A stretch of DNA of 64,000 nucleotides from Synergistaceae bacterium (GTDB lineage Bacteria > Synergistota > Synergistia > Synergistales > Aminobacteriaceae). The DNA lies in the NCBI GenBank assembly GCA_017540085.1, contig JAFYBQ010000013.1, positions 1 through 64,000 of the forward strand. Direction: 5' to 3'. The translations under genes were made by a program, and so were the position numbers. Below, in pieces: positions 7,945 through 55,109 of this stretch; positions within the stretch are counted from its first letter, which is position 1; each line of letters starts with the position of its first letter. The notes below the pieces were generated by a model. It was not told the origin of the DNA. It worked only from the letters and a program-made list of their open reading frames with translations, and made no database searches.

Positions 7945-9168
7945 ATGTTATCATCCTCACTGTCAGCAATATGGAACGAAACCGCCGCTGTATTCACTAA
8001 TGCGGGATACTCATTCTTCAAGATTGAGGCTCATGTAGTATGCGCCGCAGTCGTTGTGATTCTTCTGTACCGTCAGCAAAATTCCTCAGACCAGACAGAA
8101 GCCCGCATAGTGTGGAGTCGGTTATTGTCCGTTCAGATTCTGTACTGCATCGCCGGAATAATTAGAGTCCTCGTTGACGTTGCCATTATTCCCAAGAATT
8201 ACGCGACAAGATACACTGCCGCCGCTTTCACGTTCGGGCTTTTCGGGGCTATGTGCTGGCTTGTGTTCGAGTATATAGAGTTCTACCAGCATTCCGAGAT
8301 GATGAAGTCAAAAGGCAAAAGGTTCATGGCCGCGCTTCCGTTCATATTCAACACTGCTATGCTTGCGGTAGCGGGGTTCTTTCCGGGACTGTTCGCGGAT
8401 TTTTCCGGGAGGACTTACACGCGGGGGATACTTTATCCCGTCATGATGCTGATAAATTTTGCCTACCCTGTGGCCGCCGTGATTCTCTCAGTCAGACGCA
8501 GAAGCAGAATGACACGCTACGAGCGCGACACAGCCCCCGTCATGGCGACATACCCGGCTTTCTTCATGATCTGCGGGCCTCTTCAGGATCTCAACTGGCG
8601 TATACCGTTCCTGTGCTACGTGATTGTTGTCTCGGACATTTTCGTGTACATGTCGTATGCTGACAGCCTCGTGTCTGTTGACCCCCTCACGAGAATCGCC
8701 AACAAAAACGCCCTCATGCGGAATTTGTCGGAACGCTTCAAGACGGGCGAGCCTGTAACGCTTCACGTTTTCGCGGTTGATGTCGACTCGCTTGGGAAAA
8801 TCAACGGGACTTACGGACGTACGGAGGGCGACAAGGTATTAATCCTCGTGGCCAACGCCCTGCGGAAATTCAGCGCAGACGAACATACCTGCGACATATT
8901 CAGGTACTACGGCGACGAGTTCATTATCACGGCTGACATTGAGACCGACGAGGAGCGGGAGCTTTTCACCGAGCATATACGCAACTACGTAAGCAACGCG
9001 GCAATGTCGGCAAAACTTCCCTTCCACGTGAAAATCTCAATAGGCAGGGCAAAATATGAACCCTACAGCAAGACAGAGACAATATCAGGACTGATTGACG
9101 AGGCGGAGAAAACTCTTTACGAGGGGCGCGAACAAAGGAGCTTCCAGCAGATATGGAAAAGCGCGTAG
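7945..9168 (+). CDS. Membrane GGDEF-domain protein with degenerate signature
   Basis: A 407-residue protein with about six hydrophobic segments in the first 235 residues and a C-terminal GGDEF domain (about 245-395). The domain has the metal-binding AVDVDSLGKIN motif, but the active-site loop reads RYYGDEF instead of R-x-GGDEF, so the first glycine is tyrosine. The nucleotide-binding ND/GH region is also altered (INGTYGRTEGD). This suggests weak diguanylate cyclase activity or a c-di-GMP/GTP-sensing role. It stands alone and is divergent from the carboxyltransferase operon. A purine-rich site (AGAAAGAAGG) precedes the ATG. Confidence 0.85.
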   Translation: MLSSSLSAIWNETAAVFTNAGYSFFKIEAHVVCAAVVVILLYRQQNSSDQTEARIVWSRLLSVQILYCIAGIIRVLVDVAIIPKNYATRYTAAAFTFGLFGAMCWLVFEYIEFYQHSEMMKSKGKRFMAALPFIFNTAMLAVAGFFPGLFADFSGRTYTRGILYPVMMLINFAYPVAAVILSVRRRSRMTRYERDTAPVMATYPAFFMICGPLQDLNWRIPFLCYVIVVSDIFVYMSYADSLVSVDPLTRIANKNALMRNLSERFKTGEPVTLHVFAVDVDSLGKINGTYGRTEGDKVLILVANALRKFSADEHTCDIFRYYGDEFIITADIETDEERELFTEHIRNYVSNAAMSAKLPFHVKISIGRAKYEPYSKTETISGLIDEAEKTLYEGREQRSFQQIWKSA

Positions 9169-9252
9169 GCCGTAAAAATTTGGCTTATGGCGTAATTCGC
9201 TTAATGGTGTAAACTTTCAGCATCACCAAAAATTTTGGCAGGAGGTTTCAGC

Positions 9253-10470
9253 ATGAGCAGTAAAAGTTTCATGAGTTCGCTTCCTTTCCGGCTGATAGTC
9301 GCGCTCCTATTGGGTATGGGCATAGGTTTGTGGCTGTCATCAATTCACGGCTCCGCATTGAGTACCGCGCTGTTGAACATCATAGTAACGGTGCACTATA
9401 TCGCCGGGCAGTTCTTGAATTTCTGCGTCCCACTCATCATTATAGGCTTTGTTGCACCGTCAATAACACGAATGGGCGCGAACGCTTCAAGGATGCTCCT
9501 TCTTGCGCTGACTCTGGCTTACGTGTCATCAATCGGCGCGGCGTTCTCGGCGACTGCGGCGGGGTATGCGATAATTCCCATGCTCAATATTGCTACAGCG
9601 GTGGAGAGCCTGAAATCACTTCCGGAAGTCGTCTTCAAGCTCTCTATTCCGCAGGTCATGCCGGTAATGTCGGCTTTGTTCGTGTCGGTTCTTGTGGGAC
9701 TGGCGGCGGCGTGGAACAGAAGCAAAACGGTTATCGCCCTTCTTGAGGAATTTCAGCAGATAGTTTTGAGCATAGTAACAAGATTCCTGATTCCCGTTCT
9801 GCCGTTTCTGATTGGTACGACATTCTGCCAGCTCGCGTATGAAGGCTCAATCACCGAACAGTTTCCCGTTTTCCTAGCGGTGATTCTAATCGTCATGGCG
9901 GGGCATTATATTTGGATTGCTCTGCTTTACTTTATCGCGGGCGTTTACTCCGGGCGCAACCCGTGGAACGTCATCAAGAATTACGGCCCAGCATATATGA
10001 CCGCTGTCGGAACAATGTCGAGCGCGGCGACTCTCTCTGTGGCACTCACATGCGCGAAAAAGTCAGAACCGACTCTCCGTGATGACATGGTAAATTTCGG
10101 CATTCCACTTTTCGCGAATATTCACCTCTGCGGAAGCGTAATGACTGAGACATTCTTTGTCATGGCCGTGTCGAAAATACTTTACGGGGTATATCCGACT
10201 GTCGGGAACATGATACTGTTCTGCTTACTGCTGGGAGTTTTCGCGATAGGCGCACCCGGAGTCCCCGGCGGGACGGTGATGGCATCGCTCGGACTGATTA
10301 CGGGCGTTCTTGGGTTTGACGCTACTGGGACGGCGTTAATGCTGACGATTTTCGCGCTTCAGGACTCATTCGGGACTGCCTGCAACGTTACGACGGACGG
10401 AGCTTTGACGCTTATACTTACGGGGTACGCTGAGAAGCACGGAATCGGCGCGGAGAATCTGACGGCCTGA
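9253..10470 (+). CDS. Sodium:dicarboxylate/amino acid symporter (SDF/DAACS family, SstT-like)
   Basis: A polytopic membrane transporter of 405 residues of the sodium:dicarboxylate symporter fold. Visible features are the N-terminal helix with LLLGMGIGLWL, the VPLIIIGFVAPSI segment, a serine-rich reentrant region (GTMSSAATLSVAL) and the C-terminal LQDSFGTACNVTTDGA region, equivalent to the family substrate and sodium site. The likely substrates are serine/threonine or dicarboxylates, and the exact one cannot be read off. I chose the ATG at 9253 because AGGAGG lies seven bases upstream. It is transcribed alone and converges on the LysR gene. Confidence 0.9.
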   Translation: MSSKSFMSSLPFRLIVALLLGMGIGLWLSSIHGSALSTALLNIIVTVHYIAGQFLNFCVPLIIIGFVAPSITRMGANASRMLLLALTLAYVSSIGAAFSATAAGYAIIPMLNIATAVESLKSLPEVVFKLSIPQVMPVMSALFVSVLVGLAAAWNRSKTVIALLEEFQQIVLSIVTRFLIPVLPFLIGTTFCQLAYEGSITEQFPVFLAVILIVMAGHYIWIALLYFIAGVYSGRNPWNVIKNYGPAYMTAVGTMSSAATLSVALTCAKKSEPTLRDDMVNFGIPLFANIHLCGSVMTETFFVMAVSKILYGVYPTVGNMILFCLLLGVFAIGAPGVPGGTVMASLGLITGVLGFDATGTALMLTIFALQDSFGTACNVTTDGALTLILTGYAEKHGIGAENLTA

Positions 10471-10480
10471 TGATATTTTC

Positions 10481-10520
10481 CCCGGAGTTTTAGCGAATGA
10501 CTCACGCCTGAAACTCCGGG
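10481..10520. terminator. 10-bp hairpin between convergent symporter and LysR genes
   Basis: CCCGGAGTTT (10481-10490) and AAACTCCGGG (10511-10520) form a perfect 10-bp stem with a 20-base loop. The right arm lies within the last codons of the LysR gene. There is no strong U-tract on either strand, so termination may be shared or weak. Confidence 0.5.
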
Positions 10521-11389
10521 CTGTTCCTGTAAATTTCCTGCAATAATTTCACGAAGTCCGAAACACTTTCCCTTTTGTCGCCCGAATGTGTACACAACAC
10601 ACAGCATATTTTCTCCGGGCAGTCGAATAACGTCCATGCAAATTCGCCGTTATGATCATTCAGGAATCCCGGCGCAAGGCATACTCCGCGGTGAGCTTTT
10701 ATGTTCGTCAATGTAGTCTCGCGGTCATGGCTGTTGAAGTAGTCCACGCGAACCGACTCTATGATTCTCTGCTGTACTGCTTTAAGCTCAGGAGGAGAAC
10801 CGCCCCCGACCATCAGCACACGCCCGCGCAAATCTTCAGCGTAAACAATATCCCTTCCGGCTAATTCGTCATCCTTCAGCGTAATCAAGTATATTCTGCT
10901 GTCGAAAAGAAAATGAAGCCTTATCCCCGGAATGTGCTTGACGTCATTGCGCCGTGCGAACAAAATATCCTCCTCGCCTTTGAGGAATGACGCGGAGTCG
11001 TAAAGTGTAAGGAAATGCGGAGTAACTGAGACTCCCCCGTGCGATTTGCTGAACGTCTCTATAGCTTCAGGAAGGAAATATATTGCTGACCTCATCGGTA
11101 GTCCGATTGTGATATTCGCCCGGTAACGTGTGCCGTAATTCTGCCCCTGCTCGATTGCGCGTTTCAGCTCATCGCGAATGTTCCTGAGAGTCACGCAGAA
11201 CTGTTCACCCGCCGGAGTCAGCACCGCTCCTTTCGGCGAACGTTCAAAGAGTGGGAATCGTATTTCCTCTTCAATCTGCTTAATTTGGTACGTTAAAGCT
11301 GGCTGTGAAATGAAAAGTTTTTCCGCAGCTCTGTTGAAATTTTTTGTCTTTGCAAGCTCAAGAATGTAATCAATCTGTTTAGTGTCCAT
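10502..11389 (-). CDS. LysR-family transcriptional regulator
   Basis: A 295-residue LysR regulator. The first 60 residues form the winged helix-turn-helix (FNRAAEKLFISQPALTYQIKQIE), followed by LFERSPKGAVLTPAG, and the rest is the periplasmic-binding-like effector domain. I start it at the ATG at 11389, where the canonical LysR N-terminus begins; the longer frame adds residues without similarity. It is divergent from the exported hydrolase gene across about 100 bases, so by the usual LysR logic it probably controls the hydrolase/aldo-keto reductase cluster. The inducer is unknown. Confidence 0.93.
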   Translation of the reverse strand: MDTKQIDYILELAKTKNFNRAAEKLFISQPALTYQIKQIEEEIRFPLFERSPKGAVLTPAGEQFCVTLRNIRDELKRAIEQGQNYGTRYRANITIGLPMRSAIYFLPEAIETFSKSHGGVSVTPHFLTLYDSASFLKGEEDILFARRNDVKHIPGIRLHFLFDSRIYLITLKDDELAGRDIVYAEDLRGRVLMVGGGSPPELKAVQQRIIESVRVDYFNSHDRETTLTNIKAHRGVCLAPGFLNDHNGEFAWTLFDCPEKICCVLCTHSGDKRESVSDFVKLLQEIYRNSPEFQA

Positions 11390-11490
11390 AAAAATTTTCC
11401 GGCCATGATAAAAATTTGTGATTTGAATATTATATCGCCTGTGATTTAGGATTAGCCCGTCCAAAAATTTTAGTGCAGGAGGTTTCGAGA
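11390..11490. promoter_or_regulatory. Divergent LysR/hydrolase regulatory region
   Basis: On the minus strand there is a TATAAT at 11434-11429, suitable for the LysR gene, and the complementary A/T-rich block can serve the plus strand. Two direct copies of TGTGATTT (about 11417 and 11440) flank it and are candidate LysR contact sites. AGGAGG (11476-11481) is the ribosome binding site of the hydrolase. The operator assignment is inferred. Confidence 0.4.
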
Positions 11491-12552
11491 GTGAGAAAAA
11501 TTTTTCTTTGTCTCGCGCTTTTGTTATACCCTTTTGCGGTGAATGCCTCAGAGCCGATTTTGATTCAGGAGCAGGGGAGCTTCACGGCAGGAGGGAAGAC
11601 TCTCAAAAACGGCGGGGAATTTATTTTCTCTGACTTGTGGAATCAATCGGGGCAGACTGCTTACGGTGATAATGCTTTTGTCCGCTATCAGATTCCCGTA
11701 AACGCAAAGAAATTCCCGCTTGTCTTTCTTCACGGGGGCGGGCAGTCAATGAAGACGTGGGAGACAACCCCGGACGGCCGGGAAGGATTCGCGAATATAT
11801 TTTTACGGCGGGGCTTCAGCGTTTATCTTGTGGATCAGCCGAGAAGGGGCGATGCAGGCTTCACGCTTTCTTCAGGGGACGCGATTACACCGATGTATTA
11901 CGACCGCACAATGTTCACGCTTTTCAGACTCGGACGATGGCCGGAATATTACGATGATACGCAGTTCCCGAAAGACCCCGCGAGCCTCGAAAATTTTTAC
12001 CGCCAGGGGACTCCCAACACAGGCCCGCTTGATTTCGGCGTAATCTCTGACGCAATGTCCGCTGTTCTGTCGAAAACAGGCCCGGCGATTCTCGTTACTC
12101 ATTCGCAGGGAGGCGGTGCAGGATGGTACACGGCTCTGAAGTCTGAGAATATCCGCGCGATTGTCGCATATGAACCCGGAGGAAGTCCGCGCCTCTTCCC
12201 TGAAGGTGAAGTGCCTGACGCAATCCCGACATCATTCGGACTCATTGAGGGTACAGCGATTCCACTTGAGGAGTTCAGGAAGTTCACGAGATTCCCAATC
12301 GTCATATTTTACGGAGATCACATAGCCGACAAACCTACAGATAATTACGGCGCAGATCAGTGGCGCGGAGAACTGGCAATGGGCAGAAGATTCGCCGAAC
12401 TCGTCAACAAATACGGCGGGGACTGCAAAGTGATTCACCTTCCCGAAATCGGCATAAAGGGAAATACTCACTTCATGTTCTCCGACCTGAATAACATTGA
12501 GATTGCCGACCTTCTGTCGAAATGGCTCAAAGAGAAAGGACTTGACGAATGA
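11491..12552 (+). CDS. Exported alpha/beta hydrolase (esterase-like)
   Basis: A 353-residue secreted alpha/beta-hydrolase. The start is the GTG at 11491, with AGGAGG nine bases upstream, and the protein begins with a signal peptide (MRKIFLCLALLLYPFAVNA). The oxyanion region VFLHGGGQS and the nucleophile elbow THSQGGG are visible, and a histidine near the C-terminus (GNTHFMF) may complete the triad. The substrate is unknown. Its stop overlaps the next ATG (ATGA), so it begins an operon with the lipoprotein/aldo-keto reductase gene and the hydrolase-reductase fusion. Confidence 0.85.
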   Translation: MRKIFLCLALLLYPFAVNASEPILIQEQGSFTAGGKTLKNGGEFIFSDLWNQSGQTAYGDNAFVRYQIPVNAKKFPLVFLHGGGQSMKTWETTPDGREGFANIFLRRGFSVYLVDQPRRGDAGFTLSSGDAITPMYYDRTMFTLFRLGRWPEYYDDTQFPKDPASLENFYRQGTPNTGPLDFGVISDAMSAVLSKTGPAILVTHSQGGGAGWYTALKSENIRAIVAYEPGGSPRLFPEGEVPDAIPTSFGLIEGTAIPLEEFRKFTRFPIVIFYGDHIADKPTDNYGADQWRGELAMGRRFAELVNKYGGDCKVIHLPEIGIKGNTHFMFSDLNNIEIADLLSKWLKEKGLDE

Positions 12553-13545
12553 GAGTCAGAGTCATTCTTTTTGTGATTGCAGGTGTGATTCTGTCTTCAG
12601 GGTGCGGGGGATCATCTTCAAGCGTTTCAATCCCGCAAAATTCGCCCGACATTACAGCACCGAGTCCCGAAAATGAACCGCCGACTCAATCCCGCGACAT
12701 CACAGAGCCGAATCCGAGTCCCGAAAATGAATCACAAGATACGAATCCGACTCCCGAAATTTTGACATACTCCCCATGCCTAAAGGCAGGCGATTCTGGT
12801 ATCAACGAACCTTGCGCTCTTGCGAGTGTCTTACGGATTCTCCTCCGATGGCTGATGCCCCAACCATTTTTACTTCTTTTACTGCTATAGGCCAGCGGAT
12901 TTCACCCTTGCTTAACCTGCAAAAAATTATACAGACGAAAGGAATGAAATACAACATAATAAATTAACTTCTGATTACTCGAACGGAGCGCAGGCAATCG
13001 ACTCATCACTGCAAAGGCTTGGGCTTAATTACGTTGACTTGATGATACTGCACCATTCACAGCCGGCTAATGAGGTCGAGGCGTATAAATCGATGGAGGA
13101 AGCATTGAGCGCGGGAAAACTCCGGGCTGTCGGTCTGTCAAACTATTACACGCCGGAAGATTTTGACCGTCTCGCAAGTTCCGTAACGATTCCCCCGGCA
13201 GTCTTGCAGAATGAGACTCACCCGTACCATCAAAGCGGAACAATGAAGTCTCACATATCGCAGTACGGGACAATATTGGAGTCGTGGTATCCTCTCGGCG
13301 GTCGCGGACATACTCAGGAGCTTTTCGCAGACCCGGTAATCTCATCGATCGCAGAAGCTCACGGAAAAACATCGGCGCAAGTCATCCTGCGCTGGCATCT
13401 TCAGGCCGGGAACATAGCAATCCCCGGAAGCAGCAACGAGCAGCACATAATCGAGGACTTCAGCATTTGGGATTTCAGTTTGACAGCTGACGAAATGAAT
13501 CAGATAGCCGGACTTAATCAGGATAGAAGGAACTCAACATATTAG
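12549..13545 (+). pseudogene. Lipoprotein - aldo/keto reductase gene broken by an IS-end remnant
   Basis: The gene begins with a lipoprotein signal (LSSGC lipobox) and a proline/serine/asparagine-rich linker containing repeated PSPENE-type units. The frame then runs into foreign sequence at about 12762 and stops at 12890. Aldo/keto reductase coding resumes at about 12961 (KLTSDYSNGAQAID) and runs to 13545. This C-terminal part retains the ILHH histidine block, WYPLGG and IPGSS, but the N-terminal third with the catalytic Asp, Tyr and Lys is gone. It was probably an outer-surface or periplasmic lipoprotein version of the reductase fused in the next gene. A TTG at 13039 could start a short fragment, but function is unlikely. 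Confidence 0.8.
12762..12960 (-). mobile_element. Remnant of an IS200/IS605-type (IS1341-like) right end
   Basis: Read on the minus strand, this segment ends in a small hairpin followed by GGGGAGTATGTCAA, the hallmark of many IS605-family TnpB element right ends. Just upstream on the same strand an open stretch (EIRWPIAVKEVKMV, then a stop) resembles the poorly conserved C-terminal tail of TnpB. No transposase core and no left end are visible. The segment sits precisely where the lipoprotein-reductase frame is broken. Boundaries are taken from where host coding stops and resumes. Confidence 0.6.
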
Positions 13546-13557
13546 GAGGCATTAATC

Positions 13558-15324
13558 ATGAAAGAAATCATAACGGCAGCACTAATCATCATGGCATTCA
13601 CGGCGTGCGCGTTTGCAGAGGAAGTGAAGTATATTGACGCTCCGAAATTCGCGGGAGAAATATATCTTTACGGCCAGCCCTCAAAGGAAGATGTAGATTT
13701 TGAGCAGTGGTACGAGATTCCCGGGCGGGGTCAGTTCGTTCGGAATGTGAAAGTCCCGACTCTGATTCCGTATCTCCCTTCCCCCGAAAACTCTAACGGT
13801 GCTGCAATCATCATCGCGCCGGGCGGAGCGTTCCTCCATCACACTTTCGGGAGCGGAGGCTATGAGGCTGCGGAGTGGTTCAAGTCTCAGGGGTTCGCGA
13901 CATTCATACTCAAGTACAGAGTCGAGATTACACCGAGAGAGGAGTCAGAGTATCAAGCGTACGTAGCGAAAATGATGGAGGGCTACAGGGCTGGAGGCAG
14001 AAGCGGAAATTACGCCCCTGCGACTCCTGATTACGCATACGAGGACATTAACGCGGCTGTGAAATTGATTCGTGAACGCGCTAATGAGTTTCACGTGAGG
14101 CCGGACAAAATCGGGATCGTAGGATTCTCGGCGGGGGCGTTGATGGCGGTCTACAATGCAGAGTGCGCGCCGTCAGAGTCAAAAGCTGACTTTATCGCGT
14201 CAATTTACGGTCAGTTAGTCCTGCGTGAGATGAGCGGGAAACTTCCGCCGATGTTCGCGGCCATGTCATCAGATGACGAATTATCCGGGCAGAGCGGATT
14301 CGAGGTCATACAGGCGTGGCAGAAGCGCGGAATCGTTGAGCTGCATTTGTACGGTCAGGGCGGTCATAATTTCGGCATGGGTCATAAGCCGTTCACTAAT
14401 TATCTTTGGCCTGAAGAGTTTTTAGCGTGGCTCCGAATGCTGAAGATCATTAATGAGCCGGCATCATCCGCAAAAATCAGACTCAACAACGGACTCGACA
14501 TTCCGCAATTCGGGATAGGCACGTTCCGTTCAGACGTTCAGCAGGCACATGACGCAGTTGTTACGGCGTTGCGGGCGGGTTATCGTCATATTGACACGGC
14601 GCACGCGTACCAGAACGAGCGCGGAGTCGGTTCGGGCGTGAAAGACTCAGGAATCCCCCGCGGCGAAATATGGATTACGAGTAAATTATGGCCGACGGAT
14701 TACAATTCGGGCAACGTGGAAGAGGCCATCAGCAAAATGCTGCAGCGACTCGGAACGGATTATATTGACCTCGTATATTTGCATCAGCCTGTAGGTGATT
14801 ACATGGCCGGGTATCGCGGTCTTGAAGCAGCAGTGAAGGCGGGAAAAGTCCGGGCTATAGGGCTGTCGAATTTTGACCTCAACGAGAAATTATTTGATGA
14901 CGTTCTCGCAAAGGCCGAAATTAAGCCGGCGATTGTTCAGATTGAATTGCACCCCTACGCGCAGAGAAAAGCATTCCGCAAGAAGTGCGCCGAACATAAT
15001 ATAGCGGTTGAAGGCTGGTATCCTCTCGGCGGGACTCACGGCGGGAATAACGTCCTTTTCGCTGACCCTGTGATTAATGAGATTGCCGGGCGTTACGGGA
15101 AGACTCCTGCTGAAATAATTTTGCGCTGGCACGTTCAGGAAGGCTTCAGCACGATTCCCGGATCACGAAACGAGAATCACATACGGCAGAATATCACGGT
15201 TCTTGATTTCGAGCTGTCAGAAGATGACATGAACAAGATTCGCGCTCTTGACGGTGAGAAGAGATTCTACACTGGCGATTTTGAGTCGTCGCAGAGATTC
15301 TTAGACTGGACTCCTGAAGACTAA
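13558..15324 (+). CDS. Exported alpha/beta hydrolase - aldo/keto reductase fusion
   Basis: A 588-residue two-domain protein with an N-terminal signal peptide (cleavage after about residue 20, CAFA). Residues 30-300 are an alpha/beta hydrolase of the acetyl-esterase/xylanase type with IIIAPGGAF, the nucleophile elbow GFSAG (Ser191), and GGHNFG (His270). Residues 305-588 are an aldo/keto reductase with the complete tetrad visible: Asp346, Tyr351, Lys376 and His409. An NAD(P)H-dependent reductase outside the cytoplasm would be unusual, so the cofactor supply is unclear. AGGAGG lies eight to nine bases upstream of the ATG. It lies 12 bases after the broken paralogue. Confidence 0.85.
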   Translation: MKEIITAALIIMAFTACAFAEEVKYIDAPKFAGEIYLYGQPSKEDVDFEQWYEIPGRGQFVRNVKVPTLIPYLPSPENSNGAAIIIAPGGAFLHHTFGSGGYEAAEWFKSQGFATFILKYRVEITPREESEYQAYVAKMMEGYRAGGRSGNYAPATPDYAYEDINAAVKLIRERANEFHVRPDKIGIVGFSAGALMAVYNAECAPSESKADFIASIYGQLVLREMSGKLPPMFAAMSSDDELSGQSGFEVIQAWQKRGIVELHLYGQGGHNFGMGHKPFTNYLWPEEFLAWLRMLKIINEPASSAKIRLNNGLDIPQFGIGTFRSDVQQAHDAVVTALRAGYRHIDTAHAYQNERGVGSGVKDSGIPRGEIWITSKLWPTDYNSGNVEEAISKMLQRLGTDYIDLVYLHQPVGDYMAGYRGLEAAVKAGKVRAIGLSNFDLNEKLFDDVLAKAEIKPAIVQIELHPYAQRKAFRKKCAEHNIAVEGWYPLGGTHGGNNVLFADPVINEIAGRYGKTPAEIILRWHVQEGFSTIPGSRNENHIRQNITVLDFELSEDDMNKIRALDGEKRFYTGDFESSQRFLDWTPED

Positions 15325-15330
15325 TATTTT

Positions 15331-15366
15331 TTCCCCTTCATGTGAAAGTGTGAGGGGGATTTATTT
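15331..15366 (+). terminator. Terminator after the hydrolase-reductase fusion
   Basis: CCCCTTCA and the facing TGAGGGG arms form a hairpin, followed by a T-rich run (GATTTATTTT). It lies directly downstream of the fusion gene. Confidence 0.6.
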
Positions 15367-15455
15367 TGCTTATCACTCATAGAATATTACGATTTGATAA
15401 ATTAATCTTATCCCGCTAATATAATTCCATTCCACAAAGCAAGGAGAACAAATCA

Positions 15456-16451
15456 ATGAAGTATGTGAAACTCGGCAATTCAGGCGTAGATGTGTCGCGT
15501 ATATGTCTCGGCATGATGAGCTTCGGCAAGCCCGGAACAGAGAACGGCGTTTTTCCGTGGGCAATGGAATTTGAAGACGCAAAGCCAATTTTCCGCAAAG
15601 CAATCGAGTCGGGGATAAACTTTTTTGACACAGCAAATGTATACCAGCTCGGAAGCAGTGAGACAATCACCGGGAAATTGATTCGCGAGTTCGGACTCAG
15701 CCGTGATGAAATTGTTGTTGCGACAAAAGTAAACTTTGAGATGAGAGCAGGAAGACTTAACGGCGGCGGATCTTCACGCAAAAATATCATGGCCGAGATA
15801 GATCACAGCCTCGAAAGACTCGGACTCGATTACGTAGACCTGTACCAGATTCACAGGCTTGACCCTTTCACGCCGATGGAGGAAATATTAGAGGCACTCC
15901 ACGATATCGTCAAAAGCGGGAAGGCTCGCTACATCGGAGCCTGCACTATGGACGCATGGCAGTTTGAGAGAATGCAGAACCTTGCGGAGCGTCATGGCTG
16001 GACGAAATTTATCACTATGCAGAATCAGTACAACCTGATTTACCGCGAGGAGGAACACGAAATGATGCCTTTGTGCCTCGACAGGAAAGTAGGCGTAAAC
16101 CCTTGGAGTCCTCTTGCGGGCGGTCGCTGCGCTCATCCCTGGGGGACGGTTACAGCACGCACGAAAATTGACGCGGTTTCCCCGGCAGTTTGGACGGAGA
16201 AGACAGCAGAGCAGGACAAAGCAGTAGTCGACAACCTCGAACGTGTAGCGCGTGAACATGGCCGGACTATGGCGCAGGAGTCTTTAGCGTGGATGTTGAG
16301 CAAGCCTTTCATATGCTCGCCCGTCGTGGGTACTACAAGCGTTAAGCACGTTGAAGAGGCTGTGTCAGCAGTTGACATTGAGATTACGCCGGAAGAAGTC
16401 GCCGCCCTCGAAGCACCGTACACAGCTCACACGAAACAGCACGCATTTTAG
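15456..16451 (+). CDS. Cytosolic aldo/keto reductase
   Basis: A 331-residue NAD(P)H-dependent aldo/keto reductase without a signal peptide. The tetrad is visible as FFDTANVY (Asp, Tyr), VATKV (Lys) and DLYQIHR (His). The C-terminal VVGTTSVKHVEE block is the usual cofactor-binding loop. It belongs to the AKR11/12-like subgroup of about 330 residues. AAGGAG precedes the ATG, and a TATAAT at 15420-15425 may be its own -10. It forms the third reductase of this cluster and is followed closely by a broken acetyltransferase. Confidence 0.93.
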   Translation: MKYVKLGNSGVDVSRICLGMMSFGKPGTENGVFPWAMEFEDAKPIFRKAIESGINFFDTANVYQLGSSETITGKLIREFGLSRDEIVVATKVNFEMRAGRLNGGGSSRKNIMAEIDHSLERLGLDYVDLYQIHRLDPFTPMEEILEALHDIVKSGKARYIGACTMDAWQFERMQNLAERHGWTKFITMQNQYNLIYREEEHEMMPLCLDRKVGVNPWSPLAGGRCAHPWGTVTARTKIDAVSPAVWTEKTAEQDKAVVDNLERVAREHGRTMAQESLAWMLSKPFICSPVVGTTSVKHVEEAVSAVDIEITPEEVAALEAPYTAHTKQHAF

Positions 16452-16454
16452 GCC

Positions 16455-16771
16455 ATGAGCGTTTTTGACGACCTGCGGAACGGAATCCCTTACGACATTA
16501 GAGACCCGGAATATTTGCGCGAGGCTCACGGAGAAATGAGCCGATGCCGTAATCTTTGCTGGCGAATCAACAGCACTAACCCTGACGACAGAGACTCAAT
16601 CCTCACACTTGAGCGCGAATTGTTCGGCGGACTCCCTGAAGGCACATTCATTACACCGCCTTTTCAGGTTGATATAGCCCGCTGCTTTCATCTCGGTCAA
16701 CAGTAACTCATGACATCCCGGACAACTGCATAGCCGTTGGAGTCCCTGCGAGAATAATAAAGGAAGTGTGA
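16455..16771 (+). pseudogene. Sugar O-acetyltransferase (maltose acetyltransferase type) with internal deletion
   Basis: The first 75 codons encode the N-terminal Mac domain of galactoside/maltose O-acetyltransferases (ERELFGGLP, then PPFQVDIARCFHLG, which normally leads into the left-handed helix). The frame then stops at 16706. In another frame the very C-terminus of the same family follows immediately (VTHDIPDNCIAVGVPARIIKEV, stop at 16769-16771). About 85 residues carrying the hexapeptide-repeat catalytic domain have been deleted between the two parts. The gene is therefore non-functional. It sits three bases after the reductase stop and would have been co-transcribed with it. Confidence 0.85.
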
Positions 16772-16819
16772 TTAATGGCAGAATAGGCGCATTGACTGAG
16801 GAACAAACGCCCAAAATTT

Positions 16820-16853
16820 ATCCCCCTGACTTTTTGCCGGGGGGATTTTCTTT
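16820..16853 (+). terminator. Terminator between convergent transcripts
   Basis: ATCCCCC (16820-16826) pairs with GGGGGAT (16840-16846) and is followed by TTTTCTTT. It ends the plus-strand reductase transcript, and its stem can also act for the FtsB/DivIC-like gene coming from the right. Confidence 0.8.
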
Positions 16854-16856
16854 GCG

Positions 16857-17150
16857 TTAATATTCTATTTCATGGTCAGGACTCTTCAGCAGTATGACTC
16901 TTTCGCCGTCTCCGATTAAGTTATACTGCTCACGCGCAAGATGTTCTATGCCTTCCTGCGTCTTGTAGAACTCCACTTTCTCTTTGTAGTCCCGGACTGA
17001 CTCGCGCTTTTCCTTCAATACAGCCTCGCTTTTTGCTATCTGCGTTCGGATTTCGGCTATCCTGTCAAGCTCGAACCTGTAATAGCTCCATGTTATAGCC
17101 AGTCCCAAGAGTCCCAGCGCGAAAAATATTATCTGCTTGAGGGATGGCAT
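16857..17150 (-). CDS. FtsB/DivIC-like septum formation initiator protein
   Basis: A 97-residue bitopic membrane protein with one N-terminal transmembrane helix (about residues 7-23), an extracytoplasmic coiled coil (about 28-65) and the conserved YKTQEGIEHLAREQYNLI block, closing with GERVILL. This matches the FtsB/DivIC/TerC family that bridges FtsQ and FtsL in the divisome. It follows argS with a one-base gap and is at the end of the secA-argS transcript. Confidence 0.88.
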   Translation of the reverse strand: MPSLKQIIFFALGLLGLAITWSYYRFELDRIAEIRTQIAKSEAVLKEKRESVRDYKEKVEFYKTQEGIEHLAREQYNLIGDGERVILLKSPDHEIEY

Positions 17151-42411: not shown

Positions 42412-43566
42412 TTACAGTCCGAAAACTTTCCGGGCCTCCGTCATATTTTCGCGTATCTTCACGCCGAAAGGACAACGCTTTTCACACGCCCCGCATTTCA
42501 CGCACTCCCCGGCGTGATGTTCCAACACCCTGTAATGCTCCCTGACTGTTTCGGGGATATTTTTGTTTCCTCCGGCCTGAGCTAGGTTGAGGAATTTTGT
42601 TACGGACGCAATATCTATCTTCACCGGGCAGGGCTGGCAGTGTGAGCAGTACATGCAGTGTCCCTCCCAGCTAATTTTCGGGAATGACGCGAAAGCAACG
42701 GCGTAATCTCTCTCACTCTCTGAGGCTGACTCATACGCGATTGATGTCTGTAACTGTTCGACACTGTGCGCCCCCGCCAAAACGCAAGCCACAGCAGGAC
42801 GGCTCAAAGCGTAGGCTATGCACTGACTGACGGTCAAAGCCGCTCCCGCCGGAGACATTTTCGCGCTCAACAAGTCTCCGCCCCCGAAACATTTCATGAC
42901 GGTGATTCCGACTCCAAGACGCTGGCATGTCTCGTACAATTTCTGCCGCTCCGGGTTCATGTTCGTGAGGTGAACGGCGTAATTCTCATCCCTCCATAGG
43001 TCTTCTACGTCCTCGCTTGCGGGCTGAAGGTCATAGCACGGATTCACGCTGAACATCAGCACTTCAACCGCTCCCGACTCAACTGCCTTCAGTGCAACCT
43101 GCGGATTATGGGAGCTTAGGCCGATATGATGAATTTTCCCGGCGGCTTTCAGTTCGCGGGCGTAATCAAGAATCCCGTTGCGTAAAATTTCGTCCCAGTC
43201 GCTCAAAGCATCGCAGTAGTGAATCATTCCCACGTCAACAAAATCAACGCCGAGAAGCCTTAATGACTCCTCAAATCCTGCTTTCGTCTCAGAAAGATTC
43301 CGAGTCCGCAAATATTGTCCGTCCTTCCACACGGAGCAGATATGAGACTGGATGATGAATTTCTCCCTGCGCCCCTTTAGAGCATGGCCGATCGCTGAAC
43401 GTAACTGCGGGTCTGGCGAGTAAAGGTCAAAATAATTCACGCCGGATTCCTCTGCTGTGTCGAAAAGTTTGGCGCACATGCTGTAATTGTCCTCAGTCAT
43501 TCCCTCACAGCCTAACGCTATTTCGCTGACGGTGAGTCCTGTTGACCCTAATTCGCGGTAAATCAT
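42412..43566 (-). CDS. Aldo/keto reductase with C-terminal ferredoxin-like domain
   Basis: A 384-residue protein: residues 1-270 are an aldo/keto reductase barrel (MIYRELGSTGLTVSEIALGCEGM; the catalytic aspartate/tyrosine region reads NYFDLYSP), and the C-terminus carries cysteine motifs CMYCSHCQPCP and CVKCGACEKRCPFG, enough for 4Fe-4S clusters. The usual HIDTA-Y motif is altered. This type is widespread in anaerobes and probably takes electrons through the clusters. Its ATG overlaps the stop of the acetyltransferase gene. Confidence 0.9.
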   Translation of the reverse strand: MIYRELGSTGLTVSEIALGCEGMTEDNYSMCAKLFDTAEESGVNYFDLYSPDPQLRSAIGHALKGRREKFIIQSHICSVWKDGQYLRTRNLSETKAGFEESLRLLGVDFVDVGMIHYCDALSDWDEILRNGILDYARELKAAGKIHHIGLSSHNPQVALKAVESGAVEVLMFSVNPCYDLQPASEDVEDLWRDENYAVHLTNMNPERQKLYETCQRLGVGITVMKCFGGGDLLSAKMSPAGAALTVSQCIAYALSRPAVACVLAGAHSVEQLQTSIAYESASESERDYAVAFASFPKISWEGHCMYCSHCQPCPVKIDIASVTKFLNLAQAGGNKNIPETVREHYRVLEHHAGECVKCGACEKRCPFGVKIRENMTEARKVFGL

Positions 43567-53879: not shown

Positions 53880-55109
53880 ATGAAAAATATATCCCGGCAT
53901 AAAGCATATAAAGTCGAGCTGAAGCCGATAATCGAGCAAATACAAATCATCGAGCGGACTATAGGCGTATGCAGGTATGTCTATAATCTTTTCATAGGCG
54001 TAAACAGGGATAATTACCGTAACAGCACACAGGGATATATGTCCGGTTATGATTTCTCAAAATGGCTGAACAACGATTACAGGAAGGCCAATTCTGATAA
54101 ATTATGGATATGGGAAGTATCGTCCAAAGCTGTGAAGAAATCCATAATGAACGCAGATACAGCTTACAAGAAATTCATGAAAGGCAATGCGGGATTTCCG
54201 AATTTCAAGCGCAGAAACGGACGGCAAGTGAGCATGTATTTACCGCGCAACAATCCCAAAGACATAATGACAGAACGGCATCGGGCAAAAATTCCGACAT
54301 TAGGCTGGGTGCGTATCAAAGAATATGGCTATATCCCGCGTCAGGGCAAAGCAATTAGTGTAACAATTACGAAACGGGCAGGAAGATATTTTGCTTCATT
54401 CCTGTTTGAGACAAATACAGCAATCCCAGTAAGCCCAATGCAATCTGAAAGCATAGGAATTGACTTAGGCGTGAAAAGTTTTGCGGTAATCTCGGACGGC
54501 AGGAATTACCCGAATATCAATAAGTCCCCAAAGGCAAGGAAATTAATCAAGAGGCTGAAGCGTGAACAGCGAAAATTTTCGCGCAAGATACAGAGATTAT
54601 TACAACGAAAGGAGGAAACTGCGAGTAAAAAGTGTAAACGTTCAAACCTAGACAAGCAAAGGCTGAAAGTACAGCGGGCGTATATGAGACTAGCTAACAA
54701 ACGTCATGACTATATAAACAAAACTGTACATGAGATAGTAAGCAGACGGCCTGAATATATCACGATAGAAGACTTGAACGTGTCGGGAATGCTGAAGAAC
54801 CGCCATTTATCACGGGCAATAGCTGAATGTGAGTTTTATTACTTCCGCGCATTGCTTGAACGTAAGTGCCGTGAGTACGGAATAGAGCTGCGAATAGTAG
54901 ACAGATTTTATGCAAGCAGTAAAACGTGTTCCCGATGTGGACATATCAAGAAGGATTTGAAGCTGTCAGACCGTGTATATGAGTGTACAGAATGCGGATT
55001 AGTGATTGACCGAGATTATAACGCCGCATTAAATTTGAGAAGCTGTAAGAAATATAATACCGCTGGCTGGGCGGGAATTAAAGCCTCTGGACTGTCGGAC
55101 AAGCCTTAG
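53880..55109 (+). CDS. tnpB: TnpB RNA-guided nuclease (IS200/IS605 OrfB family)
   Basis: A 409-residue TnpB. The helix-turn-helix N-terminus, RuvC aspartate in GIDLG (D195), glutamate in TIEDLN (E297), a zinc ribbon (C350, C353, C369, C372) and the last aspartate in DRDYNAA (D379) are all intact, so nuclease activity is possible. TnpB proteins are RNA-guided DNA nucleases ancestral to Cas12. The base composition is richer in A/T than the neighbours, consistent with transfer. No tnpA accompanies it. Confidence 0.95.
   Translation: MKNISRHKAYKVELKPIIEQIQIIERTIGVCRYVYNLFIGVNRDNYRNSTQGYMSGYDFSKWLNNDYRKANSDKLWIWEVSSKAVKKSIMNADTAYKKFMKGNAGFPNFKRRNGRQVSMYLPRNNPKDIMTERHRAKIPTLGWVRIKEYGYIPRQGKAISVTITKRAGRYFASFLFETNTAIPVSPMQSESIGIDLGVKSFAVISDGRNYPNINKSPKARKLIKRLKREQRKFSRKIQRLLQRKEETASKKCKRSNLDKQRLKVQRAYMRLANKRHDYINKTVHEIVSRRPEYITIEDLNVSGMLKNRHLSRAIAECEFYYFRALLERKCREYGIELRIVDRFYASSKTCSRCGHIKKDLKLSDRVYECTECGLVIDRDYNAALNLRSCKKYNTAGWAGIKASGLSDKP

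Follow-up and report, generated by a model that had tools for sequence, protein, structure and literature searches.

The window analysed here is a 64,000-nucleotide stretch of contig 13 in a Synergistaceae genome of 2.17 Mb (GCA_017540085.1, contig JAFYBQ010000013.1). Among named genomes, the nearest to it are metagenome-assembled genomes (MAGs) from rumen or gut labelled "uncultured Fretibacterium". The window contains a gene for a protein in which a predicted signal peptide is followed by an alpha/beta-hydrolase domain and an aldo/keto reductase (AKR) domain. We found that the AKR half belongs to a clade that, judged by its residues, lost the clamp for the 2'-phosphate of NADPH and kept the nicotinamide side of the pocket and the catalytic residues, and that most sampled members of this clade look exported. 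We put at roughly even the chance that the locus encodes a module of hydrolase and AKR that works outside the cytoplasm with NAD(H), not NADPH, as its cofactor. The locus is real and conserved, and it is part of a broader set of AKRs with predicted export of which we found no description; the enzyme families are known ones, and the system is not categorically new.

Open reading frames, Pfam matches and alignments bore out all coordinates and residues that had been proposed for this protein in the original prediction: 588 residues, a serine hydrolase elbow at Ser191 and the reductase tetrad D346/Y351/K376/H409. The hydrolase half matches the Pfam family BD-FAE (PF20434) with 36.9 bits against a gathering cut-off of 26.8; DLH is also matched, and there is a weak resemblance to PaeX and AxeA1 in NCBIfam, with scores far below the cut-offs. 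It differs from BD-FAE and from acetyl-xylan and pectin acetyl esterase-like hydrolases in being fused to an AKR. Ser191 sits in a GFSAGA motif and, together with Asp239/240 and His270, is invariant across 12 aligned orthologues. One fused orthologue (L028, genome G029) reads EFSAGA beside the nucleophile Ser, and its hydrolase is possibly impaired by the change. The AKR half is DkgA-like (Aldo_ket_red, PF00248, E 7.6e-51, residues 318-564). Only these two domains were detected in the fusion, with no Gfo/Idh/MocA fold, and the junction between them is short (about residues 300-305), its position being marked by hydrolase-only proteins of 299-301 aa in three related genomes. As a check on the cofactor pocket, an AlphaFold2 model of the AKR half alone (predicted local distance difference test score, pLDDT, 90.3; predicted template modelling score, pTM, 0.88) was compared with NADP(H)-bound AKRs; it predicts a normal (beta/alpha)8 barrel, with a template modelling (TM) score of about 0.9. 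The first outcome that was to refute the original prediction, a structural model lacking the cofactor-binding pocket, does not apply. A full-length model of the fusion had a mean pLDDT of 68 and a poor hydrolase half, for which it was not used.

The signal peptide proposed for the fusion was likewise upheld at the level of prediction. The N-terminus, MKEIITAALIIMAFTACAFA^EE, is signal-like, and a simple signal rule was positive on 13 of 15 fused orthologues, the other two being signal-like by eye. Throughout the fused copies a signal is present while its sequence drifts and the mature protein is conserved. We considered whether the fusion might be a lipoprotein and ruled this out: the signal Cys is missing from most fused orthologues, and because it is not conserved the site is that of signal peptidase I and not a lipobox.

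The AKR half includes a short cofactor strip, IPGSRNENHIRQN. Its residues G535 and H541 correspond to K232 and R238 of Corynebacterium 2,5-diketo-D-gluconate (2,5-DKG) reductase A. Compared with the PDB, the strip finds its best match in 1M9H (5.8e-8) ahead of the wild type, 1A80 (1.5e-5). The 1M9H protein is a man-made 2,5-DKG reductase A (F22Y/K232G/R238H and, reportedly, also A272G) that is said to have been made to accept NADH. Two of its replacements are natural here, and at the F22 position the window protein has Phe, where members of the clade have Phe, Tyr or Trp. The replacements F22Y and K232G and one at Arg238 are named in the PDB title of 1M9H, and a design paper treats the step from 1A80 to 1M9H (K232G and R238H) as a change of specificity (PMC4580623).

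Among the 65 sampled members of the clade, Lys is replaced by Gly at position 535 in every one and Arg by His at position 541 in 64, the exception having Tyr. The tetrad is kept in all 65, as are S437 and Q461, and N438 is kept in 63. All 65 Gly-strip AKRs form one branch (Shimodaira-Hasegawa-like approximate likelihood ratio test, 98) in a tree built without the pocket columns. Since the 2'-phosphate clamp has been lost and the nicotinamide side kept, the expected cofactor is NAD(H) and not NADPH. This narrows the original prediction, which had the reductase depend on NAD(P)H. The nearest known enzymes, the DkgA/DkgB/YvgN-type AKRs (AKR5-like; 1MZR, 3D3F, 1A80), share with the window AKR the barrel (TM about 0.9), 35-42% identity, the tetrad and the nicotinamide-site residues; however, they keep the Lys/Arg clamp on the 2'-phosphate of NADPH, and they are cytosolic, whereas the window AKR is predicted to be exported and is fused to a hydrolase.

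Two independent export signals on the same domain type had been taken to mean that export of this AKR is real, and the wider survey agrees with that prediction: AKRs are predicted to be exported in four or more arrangements (signal peptide with esterase and AKR, signal peptide with AKR, lipoprotein with AKR, and lipoprotein with flavodoxin and AKR), with exported hydrolases as the usual neighbours. In the same genome, a second AKR with an export signal (MKKLILFAVMISAMTAGCSFAD...) lies on contig 6, in a locus conserved across the genus (L015:2678-6203) that consists of a LysR gene, an exported PETase/DLH-like hydrolase and the AKR. At 13 or more loci of the genus such a hydrolase adjoins the AKR, in many cases together with a divergent LysR gene, and in a spirochaete (L123) an exported AKR stands beside an esterase-713-like lipoprotein. 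Samples taken to be Spirochaetota and Verrucomicrobiota added further clade members. At spirochaete loci L130-L151 (GC content about 0.27-0.31 where checked) AKRs occur as tandem pairs, a cytosolic 281-aa enzyme with an NADPH-type strip, VIPKSVHKERIIEN, beside an exported one of about 300 aa with the strip VIPGSSNREHIIEN; the former follows the pattern PKS....R, and the latter has Gly/His. The pair is in effect an internal control, as it sets a cytosolic Lys/Arg-type AKR beside an exported Gly/His-type one. The Gly/His strip is also carried by lipoprotein flavodoxin-AKR fusions drawn from samples of two phyla (L126:790-2307, 505 aa; L156:1483-3126, up to 547 aa).

Altogether, 57 of the 65 sampled clade members look exported, across three phyla; of the rest, the seven cytosolic ones group together in one subclade, and L160 is ambiguous. 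A rule-based signal search was positive for 39 of 48 stand-alone clade AKRs versus 1 of 55 other AKRs, in a clade sample biased by the use of exported AKRs as queries. Five plasmid-borne AKRs in named bacteria were examined, and none was exported or had the Gly pocket. In a literature search of titles and abstracts, with subscription journals outside its scope, we found no description of an exported AKR or of an esterase-AKR fusion. A separate cluster on contig 10 of the same genome (L014:1615-5429) encodes flavodoxin, ABM-cupin, carboxymuconolactone decarboxylase-like and FGE-like proteins, all with signal peptides, and there again normally cytosolic enzyme types are exported.

The same architecture recurs in other genomes, as had been suggested as a check. 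Of the 43 genomes of the genus, 10 have a complete fused gene (11 copies, at about 80% identity or more), and 4 more copies are cut only by contig ends; with at least 10 independent complete copies, an assembly chimera is ruled out. A scan with the hydrolase over 84,980 species yielded 27 loci, three of them outside the genus. The gene is fused in a Pyramidobacter MAG and a Victivallales MAG, while in a rumen Spirochaetales MAG (L068) the halves are separate adjacent genes with a signal peptide on each. No other single observation argues as strongly as this unfused pair that export is the intended fate of the AKR half. We considered contamination from Fretibacterium as the origin of these three copies and regard it as unlikely, because their AKR identity (53-56% in the spirochaete and Victivallales copies, 75% in Pyramidobacter) is below the within-genus level (79% or more) and their GC content differs, although MAG binning is not fully trustworthy. 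Where the gene is kept, both halves are under strong purifying selection: the ratio of nonsynonymous to synonymous substitution rates (dN/dS), calculated between the window and L052, is 0.053 in the hydrolase, 0.060 in the AKR and 0.12 in the signal. The gene has also been lost piecemeal, being broken in at least 6 of the 43 genomes and reduced to the hydrolase half in 3, perhaps 4; no intact AKR-only remnant was found among the 43. At L036, L039 and L040 (genomes G045, G050 and G031) the hydrolase half and its signal are intact and the AKR half is gone, and the operon has decayed repeatedly.

The fused gene is the last of three on the same strand (Table 1). The gene for a 359-aa hydrolase overlaps the start of a broken lipoprotein-AKR gene by 4 bases, a gap of 12 bp separates the stop of the latter from the fused gene, and the hairpin beyond is a probable end of the operon. 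From the overlap, the gap and the hairpin, we infer that the three genes are probably co-transcribed, giving one transcript for three exported proteins. The 359-aa protein has the signal RKIFLCLALLLYPFAVNA^SE, and its PDB sequence matches include 4q34 (E 4e-102) and the bacterial esterase 1qlw (E 1e-41). The LysR context that had been noted holds too: a LysR gene is divergent from the operon here and from the second AKR locus of the genus. Translation of this LysR gene probably begins at the ATG of MDTKQ, around position 11389, as orthologues begin at MDTKQ.

Table 1. Features of the hydrolase-AKR locus and its surroundings (window coordinates)
Feature	Coordinates	Strand	Remarks
LysR-family regulator	10502..11464	-	Pfam HTH_1 and LysR_substrate; divergent from operon
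Alpha/beta hydrolase with export signal, 359 aa	11473..12552	+	Abhydrolase_6; operon gene 1
Pseudogene: lipoprotein signal (Cys19), Pro-rich linker, broken AKR	12549..13545	+	
Replacement segment, about 200 bp	12766..12966	.	Stands in for about 285 bp of AKR N-terminal coding sequence
Gene for the 588-aa fusion (signal peptide, esterase, AKR)	13558..15324	+	
Signal peptide MKEIITAALIIMAFTACAFA	13558..13617	+	Sec type, no twin arginine
Alpha/beta-hydrolase half (BD-FAE/DLH-like)	13627..14457	+	Ser191, Asp239/240, His270
AKR half	14470..15267	+	Tetrad D346, Y351, K376, H409; nicotinamide site S437, N438, Q461
Cofactor strip IPGSRNENHIRQN, residues 533-545	15154..15192	+	Gly535, His541 replace NADPH phosphate-binding Lys, Arg
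Terminator-like hairpin, 12-pair stem, T-rich tail	15332..15359	+	Consensus match only
Further AKR, 331 aa, without signal	15456..16451	+	Conserved neighbour
Sugar O-acetyltransferase (Mac/hexapeptide), shortened to 83 aa	16455..16706	+	183-184 aa in relatives

The broken gene had been described as a lipoprotein anchor joined to the same type of reductase, and this description proved right. A lipobox (...SSGC, Cys19) is followed by a Pro/Ser/Glu-rich linker and a frame break, two thirds of the AKR, at its C-terminal end, can still be read, and an intact 321-aa homologue (L057:3182-4147) lies directly upstream of the fused gene at locus L057. The replacement segment was read from an alignment to locus L051, a close relative with a 98% identical fusion, whose own lipoprotein-AKR copy is likewise frameshifted. 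Within the segment, 106 bp match C21:98813-98918 on contig 21 of the same genome at 85%; since the matching stretch is directly downstream of a TnpB C-terminal remnant, part of the segment is debris from an IS200/IS605-type element. Elsewhere in the window, an apparently intact TnpB gene (409 aa) lies at 53880-55109.

Beyond the operon, the 331-aa AKR is probably cytosolic, and the sugar O-acetyltransferase is a usual neighbour of the fused-gene cluster in relatives. On the other side, a sodium:dicarboxylate symporter gene (9235-10470) adjoins the LysR gene in many relatives too, and its product is a possible importer of whatever the module releases. An Rfam search of window positions 9000-17000 gave no match. 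A 384-aa AKR with a C-terminal 4Fe-4S dicluster domain is encoded at 42412-43566.

How might such a module work? The probable three-gene operon, which the divergent LysR regulator would induce, encodes proteins whose export signals are of the Sec type, the lipoprotein-AKR now being broken. Once in the periplasm, the fusion's hydrolase half would cleave an acyl ester, perhaps from rumen plant material, and the tethered AKR would reduce a carbonyl, or oxidise an alcohol, on the released product. The cofactor would be NAD(H), drawn from a small scavenged or enzyme-held pool and recycled either as the enzyme alternates between two substrates or through a partner, for instance an exported flavodoxin. 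The recurrent pairing or fusion of predicted exported AKRs with exported hydrolases or flavodoxins supports such a module.

Several observations weigh against it. No extracytoplasmic source of NAD(H) has been identified. The pocket change has a single origin on the tree and so gives no independent support; with one change, a statistical test of the association between export and pocket is impossible. One cytosolic subclade has the same Gly/His pocket. The existence of hydrolase-only species and of many broken copies shows that the AKR half, being the half that gets lost, is dispensable and that the coupling of hydrolase and AKR is not obligatory. Finally, export of a protein already loaded with its cofactor through the twin-arginine translocation (Tat) pathway looks unlikely: although TatC is encoded in the genome, no twin arginine was found in the N-termini of the fusions or of the signal-bearing AKRs of this genome.

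The last point also bears on an alternative in which the AKR keeps its nicotinamide tightly bound and only passes hydride from one substrate to another, as a dismutase or epimerase, with no need for external NADH. Glucose-fructose oxidoreductase (GFOR) and the Caulobacter aldose-aldose oxidoreductase (AAOR) offer a precedent, being likewise exported, dinucleotide-dependent oxidoreductases that act on carbonyls (PMC4628093), and every nicotinamide-side residue is kept here. However, those enzymes belong to the Gfo/Idh/MocA family, and their Tat signals carry a folded, cofactor-loaded protein, whereas the window protein has an AKR fold and a Sec-type signal; moreover, loss of the phosphate clamp should weaken cofactor binding and not tighten it. 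We consider a closed cycle of this kind unlikely.

Alternatively, the exported AKR domain may no longer be a redox enzyme and may instead bind substrate or act as a scaffold for the hydrolase. This would dispose of the problem of cofactor supply, and it fits with the loss of the clamp Lys and Arg and with the species that drop the AKR half and retain the hydrolase. It sits poorly with the catalytic four and the amide-binding Ser, Asn and Gln, which are invariant or nearly so across the clade, and with an AKR dN/dS of about 0.06, and we think it quite improbable.

A further alternative is that the AKR receives electrons from an exported flavodoxin with flavin mononucleotide (FMN), so that flavin and nicotinamide work together in an extracytoplasmic reductase. 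The flavodoxin-AKR lipoproteins of two phyla point that way, as do genes for exported flavodoxins at two loci with an exported AKR, adjacent to it in L110 and close by in L068. To our knowledge, no flavodoxin alone is known to reduce NAD+, which counts against this route. The genome itself has an exported Flavodoxin_4 gene elsewhere, and extracytosolic Flavodoxin_4 proteins are known from ApbE flavinylated systems (PMC11334425), with which the module would have redox chemistry outside the cytosol in common. The window locus, however, is without a flavodoxin; no ApbE or FMN-binding gene was noticed among the open reading frames next to it, where no dedicated search was made; and we see little prospect for this reading. 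The main texts of two surveys of ApbE and extracytosolic redox systems contain no word starting with "aldo". That the fusion stays cytoplasmic or membrane-anchored, its N-terminal helix never cleaved, gains something from the fact that export here rests on prediction, but is very improbable given signal-like N-termini of variable sequence with cleavage-like motifs on fused, unfused, lipoprotein and flavodoxin-fused versions, the near absence of positives among other AKRs (1 of 55) and the signal on each half of the unfused L068 pair.

The extracytoplasmic, NAD(H)-using hydrolase-AKR module could also be one piece of something larger, although we offer this only as a speculative extension: the clade would be a whole extracytoplasmic nicotinamide system of gut anaerobes, in which exported NAD(H)-specific AKRs are combined modularly with exported hydrolases and flavodoxins and reduce diet-derived compounds outside the cytoplasm with the help of a NAD pool in the periplasm or of recycling driven by flavin. 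The usual assumption is that reductases dependent on nicotinamide work in the cytosol, because that is where NAD(P)H is found. A clade of AKRs that are predicted to be exported, keep their catalytic residues and have dropped the NADPH clamp challenges that view, and it raises the question of whether, outside the cytoplasm, gut anaerobes have a usable NAD(H) pool or a means of recycling one. If they do, plant esters, dietary carbonyls or drugs would have a new path of transformation in the gut lumen.

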